Shown here in pieces: positions 4,815 through 7,970 of a stretch of DNA of 64,000 nucleotides (position 1 is the stretch's first letter; every line of letters starts with the position of its first letter). Both the position numbers and the translations under genes were made by a program. The notes beneath the pieces are model-generated. The model ran no database searches and had not been told where the DNA came from. It saw only the letters and a list, made by a program, of their open reading frames with translations. The DNA comes from Clostridiales bacterium Firm_16 (GTDB lineage Bacteria; Bacillota; Clostridia; Saccharofermentanales; Saccharofermentanaceae), in the NCBI GenBank assembly GCA_001604185.1, contig LVAV01000043.1, positions 1 to 64,000 on the forward strand, in the 5' to 3' direction.

Positions 4815-4846
4815 CTGATTCTTTATGAATAGAAATGGAGGGAAAT

Positions 4847-5317
4847 ATGGGTTTTCTGGATAAATTATTGAACAATGCCGCCAAGAAAGCGATCAGTGAT
4901 GCTATCGATTCCGTTACCGGCAGCAACACAAGTAATACCTCGGTACCGGTATCTCAGCCTCAGGCTGCACCGTCACCGATCCCGCAAGAGACCTCGTACG
5001 AAGACGATCGTACCATCGAGCAGAAACTGGATGCGATCCTTGCTTCTGAGTTTCCTTCTTATCAGGTGCAGAAGAAAGTGGATCCGAGATCCATGGGCGC
5101 TGTCGGTAAGAGTCTGATCCCCTTCGATTATGTGATCTCTCAGAACGGCAGCATCAAGCTGGTCATCATGACTCCGGGAAACAATACCTGTGCTTCCCGC
5201 GGATATCGTTTCACGAAGGAGTTTGCCGTTCAGAGCAACATCACTCTGATCAATTTCCTCTGGTATTCACTGAATGAGGAAAGCTATATCATAGGTCGTC
5301 TGCATCAGTATCTCTGA
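4847..5317 (+). CDS. Unknown 156-residue protein beside the reverse transcriptase
   Basis: I do not recognise this protein. The start is placed at the ATG preceded by GGAGGG (4837-4842); an in-frame ATG at 4835 overlaps that site. Residues 1-26 can form an amphipathic helix (MGFLDKLLNNAAKKAI). A Ser/Pro/Gln-rich flexible linker follows (about 27-55). Residues 60-156 look like a compact alpha/beta domain with the segments FPSYQVQKKVDP, IPFDYVISQNGSIKLVIM and a Tyr/Leu-rich C-terminus. There is no signal peptide or membrane span. The N-terminal helix-linker-globular layout is common in small Clostridia proteins of unknown role. Its stop codon lies inside a palindrome leading into the RT-associated RNA, so a link to the RT is possible but unproven. 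Confidence 0.7.
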   Translation: MGFLDKLLNNAAKKAISDAIDSVTGSNTSNTSVPVSQPQAAPSPIPQETSYEDDRTIEQKLDAILASEFPSYQVQKKVDPRSMGAVGKSLIPFDYVISQNGSIKLVIMTPGNNTCASRGYRFTKEFAVQSNITLINFLWYSLNEESYIIGRLHQYL

Positions 5318-5320: not shown

Positions 5321-5329
5321 GCGATATAG

Positions 5330-5478
5330 AAAGAAGAGAAATGCGTTTTCGCACCTGCGGTGGATCAAGCCCGCGCTTTCTCGGAAGATTGACTTCCGGA
5401 TTTTGCAGGTAATCGGTGCGGGTACAGATCCGGTAACACAAGCAATGCTTGTTTCAAAGCTGTTTCTCTTCTTTTTTT
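5330..5478 (+). ncRNA. Candidate structured non-coding RNA upstream of the reverse transcriptase
   Basis: This stretch has no open frame but folds well by eye. P1 is a perfect 12-bp stem closing the element (aaagaagagaaa 5330-5341 with tttctcttcttt 5463-5474), and a run of seven T residues ends at 5478, so P1 also works as a terminator. Inside are a tetraloop hairpin TGCG-TTTT-CGCA (5342-5353); a two-part helix (ggatc 5362-5366 with gatcc 5427-5431; cccgc 5370-5374 with gcggg 5418-5422) that holds a hairpin cggaag/cttccg (5382-5398); and a hairpin acaagc/gcttgt (5438-5452). cctgc (5354-5358) can also pair with gcagg (5405-5409), which would make a pseudoknot. An RNA directly 5' of an RT is the layout of retrons and of several RT-associated RNA motifs. 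Folding was done by hand; no homology search was possible. Confidence 0.72.
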
Positions 5479-5492
5479 ATGCAATCAATCAG

Positions 5493-5548
5493 GCAGGTCA
5501 GGCCGTGCTTCGCACAGGAAAGTCCTGCGGAAAGGACCCGATCCGGCG
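5493..5548 (+). promoter_or_regulatory. Structured leader immediately before the RT start codon
   Basis: The RT leader can fold in two competing ways. One has an outer stem gcagg (5493-5497) with cctgc (5524-5528) around an inner hairpin GTGC-ttc-GCAC (5505-5515). The other is gtcc (5522-5525) with ggac (5534-5537), which would hold the only ribosome-site-like sequence (aaaggac). This suggests translation control or continuation of the upstream RNA element. The start codon at 5549 otherwise has a weak, distant ribosome site. Confidence 0.45.
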
Positions 5549-6796
5549 ATGACAGGTATTCTGGAAGCGCTTCAATACGAGGAGACCTGGAAGGAGTTTA
5601 TGGACTATAAACTTTCGGGCCACTATGTCTCCCGTCATGAGAAACAACAGCTGGCGGACTATGTCGAGCAGCGCAGGTATCTCCCCATAGCGCAGGCGCT
5701 TGTGGCCGGGGACTACTGCTTCGCACCGCCTGTGAAGCGTACCATCAACAAGAGCGGCACAGCGAAGAAGCGTGTGGTCTATACCTTCTCCGATGACGAG
5801 AACCTGTTTCTGAAGTGTCTGGGATATCTGCTCTACCGGTATGACCCGAAGCTGTCGTGCAAGTGTTTTTCCTTCCGAAAATCCTTATCTGCCAGAGATG
5901 CCATCTTCGCCATCTTGTCCCAGAAAGACCGGGACGAGTTGTACTGTTTCAAGGCCGATATCTCCAACTACTTTAATTCCATTCCGGAAGAGAAACTGGT
6001 AGAAGTGCTGGAGGAACTGATCGACGACGATCCGAAGCTTATGTGGTTTCTCCGCTGCCTTCTTCTCAGTAGAAAGAGTCTGCTGGAAGACGGGACCGAG
6101 ATCACCGAATCGCGGGGCGCTATGGCCGGGATCCCCGTCTCCCCGTTCTTCGCCAATGTCTATCTGCTTTCTATGGACAAGTATTTCGAGGAACAGGATG
6201 TGCCCTACTTCCGCTATTCTGACGATATCCTGATCTTCGCAAGATCCCGGGAAGAACTGGATGCCCGGATCGCGGAGTTCAAGTCTCAAGTCGCGGCAAA
6301 ATGTCTCGCCCTCAATCCGAAGAAGATGTCCGTTTCCGAACCCTCGCAGCCATGGGAATTCCTGGGCTTCTGCTACCATCAGGGTCAGGTGGACATATCC
6401 CGCGTCACGAAGGATAAACTCAAAGGCAAGATCCGCAGAAAAGCCAAAGCTCTTCTGCGCTGGAAGACGAAGAACGACGCCGAGTTCGAACGGGCCGGCC
6501 GCGCCCTGATCCGCACCTTCAACCGGAAGTTCTATAACGAGAAACACGAAGACTGCTTCACATGGAGCCGATGGTTTTTCCCCGTTATAACCACCGATAA
6601 GAGCCTCTCCGAACTGGATGCCTATCTTATCGAATATGTACGCTACCTCTTCCAGGGAAGGCATTTTAAGGGGAATTACAGGGTCACCTATGACGATATC
6701 AAGAAACTGGGGTTCCGAAGCCTGCGGCACGAGTACTATATCAGTCGCAAGAAACCGGATCTCGAGGTCAAGAGAATACACGACGCACTTCAATAA
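5549..6796 (+). CDS. Reverse transcriptase of unassigned (group II-like) type
   Basis: This 415-residue protein has the core motifs of an RNA-directed DNA polymerase: KKRVVYTFSDDE (about 73-84, motifs 1-2), KADISNYFNSI with catalytic Asp137, GIPVSPFFANVYL (194-206, motif 4), YFRYSDDILIF with the catalytic Asp pair 225-226, LALNPKKM and EFLGF (260-264). The thumb-like C-terminus (about 270-415) carries conserved Trp/Tyr positions but no HNH, zinc-finger or protease domain. It lacks the retron NAxxH/VTG motifs and the DGR SQ signature, and motif 4 lacks the PQG of most group II intron RTs. It therefore looks like a group II-like or 'unknown group' RT. It follows a structured RNA and ends convergently overlapping the next gene by 29 bases. 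Target and product are unknown; a role in phage defence or in copying the upstream RNA is only inference. Confidence 0.9.
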   Translation: MTGILEALQYEETWKEFMDYKLSGHYVSRHEKQQLADYVEQRRYLPIAQALVAGDYCFAPPVKRTINKSGTAKKRVVYTFSDDENLFLKCLGYLLYRYDPKLSCKCFSFRKSLSARDAIFAILSQKDRDELYCFKADISNYFNSIPEEKLVEVLEELIDDDPKLMWFLRCLLLSRKSLLEDGTEITESRGAMAGIPVSPFFANVYLLSMDKYFEEQDVPYFRYSDDILIFARSREELDARIAEFKSQVAAKCLALNPKKMSVSEPSQPWEFLGFCYHQGQVDISRVTKDKLKGKIRRKAKALLRWKTKNDAEFERAGRALIRTFNRKFYNEKHEDCFTWSRWFFPVITTDKSLSELDAYLIEYVRYLFQGRHFKGNYRVTYDDIKKLGFRSLRHEYYISRKKPDLEVKRIHDALQ

Positions 6797-7970
6797 TGCG
6801 CTTGACCAGATCCGAATGGGCATCGAAGTTGCGAAGCTTGATGGAGGTACCACGCTGGTCCCGCATCAGAAGAACGCCCGTATCGGTACAGATCGCCACT
6901 TCGTAAGGATGCTTGTTCTCCGGGTGATAAGGATCCGAAAGGAACACCAGATCACCGGGATGGATGCTCTCCAGAAGAAGATCCCTTGTAACCGCATCGT
7001 ACTCCAGCTGCACAGGATGTCCTTCCTTCATCTGATTGTCCATCTCACGGGACAGCTTAACGCCGTTCACCGATGCCGATACATAGACCAGACCTTGCAT
7101 AGAGATGCCACGCTTGGTCAGGCCTCCCTGCAGGTATGTTGAGTTCACCATCATGAGGGCCGAGCTGACAAAATATCGCACACCGGAGTTCGCGGTCTCT
7201 TCCGCCAGTCCCAGCTCAACCACACCACTACTGCTGATCCATCCGGTCTCGCCGTTAGGAAGCGTGACCTGGTACACGCCGTCACGCTTAACGTCTGAAT
7301 ACAGGACCGTATTCATCATGACTTCCGCGATCAGAGTACCGCTGCTGGCGTGGGACATAACACGCTTGGACATATCTGCGATGACCAGCTTATACTGATG
7401 CAGTTCTGGCTCACAGGAAGACATATCCGCACTCAGATCGTCCTCCCGCACATATCCGATGATATTATCCATGGAACGGATCAGCACATATCCGTTCTGG
7501 CTCTCTTCCTCCATCAGGTGCACCGGCTCATTCATCAGAAGCTGCGTGATACGCTGGCTCTTGATGTCCGCCTTCTGCATGACACTGGTACAATTCGACT
7601 TCACCACACGGTAGGAATCGTCATAGATCAGTTCCGGATCCTCGTCTACGAAGATCGCGATATCCGTATTCTTGAAAAATCCCGGCAAAACCTTAGGCAG
7701 CACAAGGAACACCACCAGCAGGATCGCGGCGAAAACCGATGCAGCGATGACTACCTTCGGCCATCTCTTGATCTGATACTCGGAGACATTGGAATCCGAA
7801 CTGTCCAGAGACCATACATTGGCAAGATCCTCGGCTTTACCGAACTGGCCGGAAGGCTCGGCAAAAGAACCCACCTTGGAGCTGGCTACACCGTCATCTT
7901 TTCTCTTTCTTCTGAAGATCTTCTCCAGCCGCAGTTTCAGCTGTTTCTTGATCCTGGATTCCTGCTTCAT
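6768..7970 (-). CDS. Membrane-anchored SH3 protein with an inactive NlpC/P60-like domain
   Basis: The 400-residue product has a basic cytoplasmic tail (1-70), one membrane span (about 71-91), two SH3-like repeats (about 115-180 and 193-252, ending NGETGWISSSG) and a C-terminal NlpC/P60-like domain (about 265-400). That family cleaves peptidoglycan peptides. The fold is recognisable (YLQGGLTKRG, IHPGDLVFLSD), but the DCSG catalytic Cys is replaced (S290-M291-Q292-G293) and the HVGI histidine is Glu357 (YEVAI). It should bind the wall rather than cut it. It is the last gene of the dnaD-dnaI-acpS run, 11 bases after acpS. Its 3' end overlaps the RT gene coming the other way. Confidence 0.85.
   Translation of the reverse strand: MKQESRIKKQLKLRLEKIFRRKRKDDGVASSKVGSFAEPSGQFGKAEDLANVWSLDSSDSNVSEYQIKRWPKVVIAASVFAAILLVVFLVLPKVLPGFFKNTDIAIFVDEDPELIYDDSYRVVKSNCTSVMQKADIKSQRITQLLMNEPVHLMEEESQNGYVLIRSMDNIIGYVREDDLSADMSSCEPELHQYKLVIADMSKRVMSHASSGTLIAEVMMNTVLYSDVKRDGVYQVTLPNGETGWISSSGVVELGLAEETANSGVRYFVSSALMMVNSTYLQGGLTKRGISMQGLVYVSASVNGVKLSREMDNQMKEGHPVQLEYDAVTRDLLLESIHPGDLVFLSDPYHPENKHPYEVAICTDTGVLLMRDQRGTSIKLRNFDAHSDLVKRIIEVRRVFS

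Follow-up and report, generated by a model that had tools for sequence, protein, structure and literature searches.

Two described bacterial systems in which a reverse transcriptase (RT) of the UG kind works with an RNA stand closest to the locus treated here. In DRT10 a UG17 RT copies a loop placed after a stable hairpin, and a short repeat arranged as A-B-A' lets the product slip back (PMC12632851). DRT9, described as RT plus noncoding RNA, couples a UG28 RT to a universally conserved poly-uridine template and yields poly-dA. We analysed a window of 64,000 nucleotides, by which we mean the whole stretch of DNA examined, from Clostridiales bacterium Firm_16 (Bacillota; Clostridia; Saccharofermentanales; Saccharofermentanaceae; assembly GCA_001604185.1, contig LVAV01000043.1, positions 1 to 64,000 of the forward strand). 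It carries an RNA of the Rfam family RT-5, an RT of group UG26 and a small partner protein, encoded side by side.

Comparison of sequences establishes these parts, their linkage, the covariation of the RNA and the maintenance of the locus in synteny. With somewhat more confidence than doubt, and by analogy with described systems, we read it as a UG (DRT) system with three parts, in which a Vsr-fold partner, an independent RT-5 RNA and a UG26 RT would make repeats, likely against phages. The RNA and the RT group were both already known; what is added is the third part, a fuller RNA structure, the natural separation of RNA and RT in some genomes, and fixation in the genus. The features are as follows, with the basis of each in brackets.

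4835..5317, + strand: third component, a 160-amino-acid protein whose gene stops just before the RNA (hidden Markov model (HMM), linkage, AlphaFold2 (AF2), structure comparison)
5330..5478, + strand: whole RT-5-type noncoding RNA, 149 bases, with closing stem and U-run (sequence, Rfam, our own model R1)
5330..5341, + strand: closing stem P1, 5' strand AAAGAAGAGAAA, 12 bp with 5463-5474 (sequence)
5342..5353, + strand: P2 hairpin UGCG-UUUU-CGCA (sequence and covariation, helix 2)
5353..5358, + strand: pseudoknot 5' strand ACCUGC, pairing with 5405-5410 (alignment tests)
5362..5431, + strand: P3 arm (sequence and covariation, helices 4-6)
5362-5366/5427-5431, + strand: P3 helix GGAUC/GAUCC (sequence)
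5370-5374/5418-5422, + strand: P3 helix CCCGC/GCGGG (sequence)
5382-5398, + strand: inner hairpin CGGAAG/CUUCCG within the P3 arm, outside the covariance model (sequence)
5399-5401/5412-5414, + strand: P4 GAU/AUC within the P3 arm (sequence and covariation)
5405..5410, + strand: pseudoknot 3' strand GCAGGU (alignment tests)
5438..5452, + strand: last hairpin ACAAGC/GCUUGU, in the place of SL5, the proposed template boundary of DRT10 (sequence and covariation)
5453..5466, + strand: candidate template, with A UUC at 5453-5455, B AAAGCUGU at 5456-5463 and A' UUC at 5464-5466, A' lying in P1 (repeat count in loops, analogy with DRT10)
5463..5474, + strand: closing stem P1, 3' strand UUUCUCUUCUUU (sequence)
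5472-5478, + strand: run of seven T, overlapping the 3' end of P1 (sequence)
5549..6796, + strand: UG26 RT, 415 amino acids, catalytic D137, D225 and D226 (PADLOC, Pfam RVT_1, AF2)

The RNA is a member of Rfam RT-5 and is larger than its Rfam model. RF03026 (RT-5) matches 5349-5466 over the full model (positions 1-104) at 77.1 bits, E 2.1e-13, against a gathering threshold of 45.7, and it is the sole above-threshold Rfam match in the window. Our covariance model R1, built from the RNAs of 25 relatives and extending the Rfam-type structure by the closing stem, matches 5322-5480 at 75.8 bits. The inner arms are common to both; the Rfam consensus of 104 positions has neither P1 nor the pseudoknot as pairs, and both are found in the present analysis. 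A sequence-only reading of this DNA had described a 149-base element with a 12-bp closing stem, a seven-T end and three arms, all of which direct inspection bears out. It had also called the system new or poorly studied: the pairing of RNA and RT holds, and the label 'unassigned' falls, since Rfam names RT-5 and PADLOC names UG26. Among the papers listed in our literature searches, we found neither a published function for the two nor a description of this system.

Across UG26 loci, RNA and RT travel together. A scan for UG26 gave at least 450 confirmed stretches, of which the best 80 loci were used; eight of them belong to the window's genus, and L117 had already served as a row of the R1 model. 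In 76 of the 80, R1 locates the RNA (E<1e-6) upstream and on the strand of the RT, with scores of at least 39.4 bits and a median of 25 nt from the RNA end to the RT match (range -2 to 572). The four misses comprise a locus with less than 100 nt upstream (L161), one at 22 bits (L130) and two without a match (L166, L168). Among the 80, record titles name Lachnospiraceae, Bacteroidales, Propionibacteriaceae, Bifidobacteriaceae, Coriobacteriales and one Acidobacteriota (L168, a locus without the RNA); many of these records are bins from gut or rumen and may be misnamed. Around other RTs, in 14 control loci, R1 reached at most 21.7 bits, on the opposite strand about 1.5 kb away (L199); ten of these control RTs were compared with PADLOC, and UG26 was the best profile for none. 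Of the genomes of 198 relatives, 83 contain RF03026 at E<=0.001, with one match each (77 above the curated threshold); UG26 is found in 83 of 188 genomes of the order; across the phylum, strict filters left the RNA in one of 397 other genomes.

Alignment of 94 RNAs points to a heavily covarying structure that includes the pseudoknot. Changes on both sides are seen in 39 of 43 pairs, and 94.5% of paired cells can pair, versus 71.2% (standard deviation (sd) 0.5) in shuffled alignments. The covariation score of 0.662 exceeds that of every shuffle (mean 0.239, sd 0.006) and of every slid version (maximum 0.157). Double changes affect 11 of the 12 modelled pairs of P1 and all nine of the last hairpin (helix 7); in the alignment of the model's own 25 RNAs, RNAalifold reports them in 23 of 39 pairs. 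The model behind the 94-RNA alignment contained the other helices and not the pseudoknot, so that the alignment was fitted to those helices. Taken alone, the pseudoknot is 97.9% paired, with 42 double-change cells versus 9.8 (sd 2.4) in shuffles. C-G/U-A swaps occur at two positions in 16 and 19 sequences, and double changes at two others in 2 and 5; this count of four pairs with double changes was equalled by 15 of 500 shuffles. Further pair types are not above shuffles (8 vs 8.9), a measure that does not favour the pseudoknot. The possible 5-bp pseudoknot noticed earlier is retained as a covarying pairing, with a length of 6 bp in the present reading. One of the 94 rows (L040) is a spurious antisense match; the model's other antisense matches, at 15-29 bits, fall on the same RNAs and were left uncounted. 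A MAFFT alignment of 48 RNAs, which put P1 one base off between genera, was replaced by alignment A4 and the model alignment A5. The absence of conservation or covariation upstream of RT homologues had been named beforehand as what would speak against an RNA-RT system; both are present.

The RT begins with an ATG at 5549, 70 bases past the RNA end. By profile score it is a clear member of PADLOC RT_UG26 (506.2 bits, E 1.3e-152, residues 4-401), a profile for which no curated cut-off is given; the next profiles are UG27 (124 bits), generic RT (121), UG4 (108), UG17 (97.3) and Drt9 (88). We infer the class of UG26 within the UG enzymes. The protein also matches Pfam RVT_1, and its AF2 model has a mean pLDDT of 91.8. 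As the earlier reading had it, the catalytic residues are intact: neither of two alignments (22 and 52 sequences, the window included) shows any variation at D137, D225 or D226. The motif GIPVSP, by contrast, is not the unusual motif 4 it was taken for, the pattern G-[ITM]-P-x-[SA] being common to the 22 aligned UG26 RTs. In this same alignment Tyr-397, near the C-terminus, is nearly invariant.

The gene at 4835-5317, absent from the earlier reading, is by its linkage a third component of the cassette. When genes around the 80 loci were clustered, one more family besides that of the RT proved widespread (46 loci by BLAST), namely the gene ending just before the RNA. An HMM of this family is positive in 65 of the 80 loci and in 62 of the 71 with at least 560 nt of upstream sequence; the stop codon lies a median of 6 nt from the RNA (range -4 to 158, 63 loci). 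Partner distances track RT distances (r 0.74, over 903 non-independent pairs of 45 loci).

In the AF2 model, the partner has a poorly predicted middle, a disordered linker, followed by a confidently folded block (residues 61-160, pLDDT 95-98). Its N-terminus starts with a conserved MG (44/46 and 41/46 members) and looks by eye like an amphipathic helix. The modelled C-terminal domain resembles the Vsr/PD-(D/E)XK fold: re-alignment with VIA gives Z values of 9.7 for I-Bth0305I, 9.0 for NGO0050 and 8.3 for E. coli Vsr (85-88 residues, root-mean-square deviation 2.3-2.5), only modestly above other rows. Foldseek gave no significant match (best E 0.16, TnsA), nor did HMMER against the PDB (best E 0.32), and Pfam had no match for the window's protein; the likeness to Vsr is drawn from the VIA re-alignment and from the name of a PADLOC model, RTasCOG2852. 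This model matches 21 of the 46 members at E<=0.1 (best 7e-7), which indicates that proteins of this type had already been recorded next to RTs; on the window's partner its match is weak (E 5e-4) and covers the N-terminus only. RTasCOG2852 paired with RT-5 was not found in the literature searched.

The partner is probably no active nuclease, because the columns conserved at 90% or more among the 46 members (M5, F141, N147, Y151, R155) include no D, E or H, as judged by column conservation rather than residue-by-residue mapping to Vsr. An acid is found in over half of the members at 9, 72, 77, 86, 148 and 154. Five diverged partners (L027, L034, L040, L041, L045) from a related genus, here called g2, combine a WWN motif with a strand that reads VVE or VIE, features that we take to come nearer than the window's partner does to the Vsr/DUF559 pattern of active enzymes.

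The loop that follows the last hairpin reads UUCAAAGCUG, and its possible A-B-A' layout is suggestive of a template, for which analogy with DRT10 would predict a complementary DNA (cDNA) of (ACAGCTTTGAA)n. Of 65 distinct loops, 44 have UUC as A, mostly with AAA next to it, and 38 repeat the 3-mer near the stem, versus 8.8 expected when 3-mers are drawn from the same RNA. The likeness to DRT10 extends to the three-part composition and to an RNA in which several arms join a central stem and the last hairpin is followed by a loop, the template there and a candidate template here. The differences are a UG26 rather than a UG17 RT, a Vsr-fold partner in place of SLATT, and a loop more conserved here; no SLATT match was found among the neighbours, that is, the Vsr-fold protein and an SH3/NlpC-P60 protein. 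DRT9 shares the combination of a UG RT with an RNA bearing a conserved loop, known there and proposed here as template, and its structure is similar to the RT model (Foldseek TMq 0.55-0.63); it differs in its poly-uridine template, the loop here having no poly-U, and in being described without a further protein.

By analogy with DRT9 and DRT10, we propose the following mechanism and defence role. The RT would bind the RT-5 RNA and copy the loop that separates the last hairpin from the closing stem, with that hairpin as the template's 5' boundary. The match between the UUC segments would allow the cDNA to slip back for another round of extension, giving a single-stranded DNA of tandem repeats of about 11 nt. 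The cDNA would probably be primed on the RT itself, with Tyr-397 a candidate residue. The partner would use its degenerate nuclease fold to bind cDNA or RNA and might reach the membrane through its N-terminal helix. Defence against phages would be the most likely purpose, in a lineage where the system became a fixed chromosomal gene.

Judged from the assemblies searched, RNA and RT form a core gene at a syntenic site in the window's genus. Both are present in 23 of 23 genomes, with one RNA match each; one assembly (G001) has the RT in pieces at contig ends. In the stretches fetched from 22 relatives, a convergent SH3/NlpC-P60 gene (nlpC) lies beside the system in 21, acpS in 20 and trkH in 17, every stretch having trkH or nlpC; the partner gene is found in 15. 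RT identity to the window is 66-81%, a cut contig aside, vs 66-76% for nlpC and 72-83% for trkH, and RT distances correlate with those of nlpC (r 0.73) and trkH (r 0.47). In the eight pairs listed, RT nonsynonymous distance (dN) is 0.15-0.25 and synonymous distance (dS) >1.6. A second RT of the window's genome (contig C2:115848-116741) is retron-like, matched by PADLOC RT_Ec107-like, and occurs in 5 of the 23 genomes. No close relative of the UG26 RT turned up in phage, plasmid or viral collections: the best matches listed have 23-27% identity, and the plasmid and phage records, including all 696 plasmid ones, stay below 60%, the viral scan being made with two peptide patterns. In the window, the last 29 bases of the RT gene (6768-6796) are shared, tail to tail, with the convergent SH3/NlpC-P60-like gene (6768-7970, minus strand). 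Farther off, an open reading frame (ORF) of 489 amino acids at 287-1756 seems by eye to be a fusion of two regions, one like GNAT acetyltransferases and one like aldo-keto reductases.

A number of observations weigh against a three-part, repeat-making defence system. Presence in all 23 genomes searched from the genus is unlike what is expected of defence. The partner is absent from 9 of the 71 loci with enough upstream sequence and from 7 of the 22 relatives within the genus, and so would not always be needed; three of the nine loci have other genes by eye, toxin-like (L158) or glycyl-tRNA-synthetase-like (L178, L179). As to the template, 22 of the 65 loops repeat two nt only and five none, these five being all from g2, where the anchor fell on the wrong A-run. 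A scan anchored on RNAfold hairpins found 3 nt or more in 13 of 74 loops (about 8 expected) and no repeat in 33 (19 expected); we regard it as unreliable because of alternative folds and used the motif-anchored scan, which has misplaced anchors of its own. Finally, A' is also part of the closing stem, so that conservation of the stem could by itself account for the UUC match, and because of relatedness among the rows 65 loops are not 65 independent tests; for both reasons we call the A-B-A' support suggestive only.

A bolder reading is a telomerase-like ribonucleoprotein (RNP), by now a fixed chromosomal gene with vertical inheritance in the genus, in which UG26 would repeatedly copy a built-in 11-nt template into (ACAGCTTTGAA)n, to be bound by the degenerate Vsr-fold protein in a constitutive cellular or innate-immune role. 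We hold this to be quite possible, if on balance improbable. The likeness to telomerase lies in a possible template with an alignment repeat and an upstream boundary hairpin; the comparison is by sequence, where similarity is weak (E 5e-5), and repeat addition is only proposed.

The same templated RT might also make its product once, or have it read differently, for instance as promoter or gene as in DRT2, or might copy a different stretch of the RNA. The uses that UG relatives make of their RNAs differ (PMC12632851, PMC13174585), and the conservation of the loop exceeds that stated for DRT10 in the first of these papers, which makes a sequence-specific use of the loop plausible. Against these variants stand the excess of UUC repeats and the place of the loop after the last hairpin, beside the closing stem, which matches the DRT10 template. 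We consider them unlikely.

More doubtful is a domesticated RNP without a defence role, RT and RNA serving a cellular task such as stress response, DNA repair or signalling. Fixation with conserved neighbours, the low dN at high dS, the far patchier retron RT of the same genus and the lack of close relatives on mobile elements would all suit it. Against it, the system is patchy elsewhere and crosses phyla, the UG enzymes characterised so far are all linked to phage defence according to PMC12632851, and UG26-type RTs have been reported in cold-seep viruses (PMC10504277).

That the RNA is a cis-acting 5' leader regulating the RT mRNA could be suggested by its position upstream of the RT, mostly within tens of bases, in 76 loci; split loci bring this close to refutation, and we give it very little credence. 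In g2, RNA and RT lie on the same strand 1.2-9.5 kb apart (18 loci measured), with predicted ORFs in between, many on the opposite strand. All 22 of the split loci listed have a -10 box, TATAAT, some 7-8 nt ahead of the closing stem, and 20 a TTG-type -35, compared with TATAAT in one of 83 control windows; past the closing stem these RNAs have a U-rich tail. The -10 stands out less in the window's genus than in g2. Since RNA and promoter survive kilobase separation from the RT, comparison of these loci identifies the RT-5 RNA as an independent gene and speaks for action in trans. The earlier reading had left template, primer or regulator open; the cis-regulatory leader all but drops out, and template is the best guess. 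One assembly, 93% complete, has the RNA (147 bits; G053, locus L103) and no UG26 match. In several split loci (L088 8621-11008, L095 5349-7730, oriented coordinates), an HD-GYP-type protein of about 795 amino acids ends 3-4 bases before the RT start; as a candidate partner it was set aside, other loci having no such gene.

That an ordinary group II intron or retron RT merely neighbours an unrelated RNA has next to no chance: both profiles match weakly and the model's fold is closest to the group II RT GsI-IIC (Foldseek TMq 0.69-0.75; G2L4 0.59-0.68), but TIGR04416 (group II maturase) reaches 103.8 bits vs a cut-off of 300 and NF038233 (retron RT) 60.2 vs 235, far from the UG26 score, the Rfam scan of the whole 64-kb window found no intron RNA, and the NAxxH and VTG motifs that mark retron RTs are absent by eye from the translation, in agreement with the sequence-only reading. 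The other outcome named beforehand as adverse, an RT inside an ordinary group II intron clade with intron domains V/VI nearby, finds no support in the profile scores and the Rfam scan.

Two database entries for which we found no published function, the RT-5 RNA and the UG26 RT, thus become one three-part system, whose mechanism we offer as a testable analogy and not as a result. If it is true, a further group would join the repeat-making UG enzymes, with a bearing on the idea that telomerase has bacterial roots. As such an enzyme would, moreover, be fixed in its genus and not patchy, one may ask whether it has a role outside the arms race.
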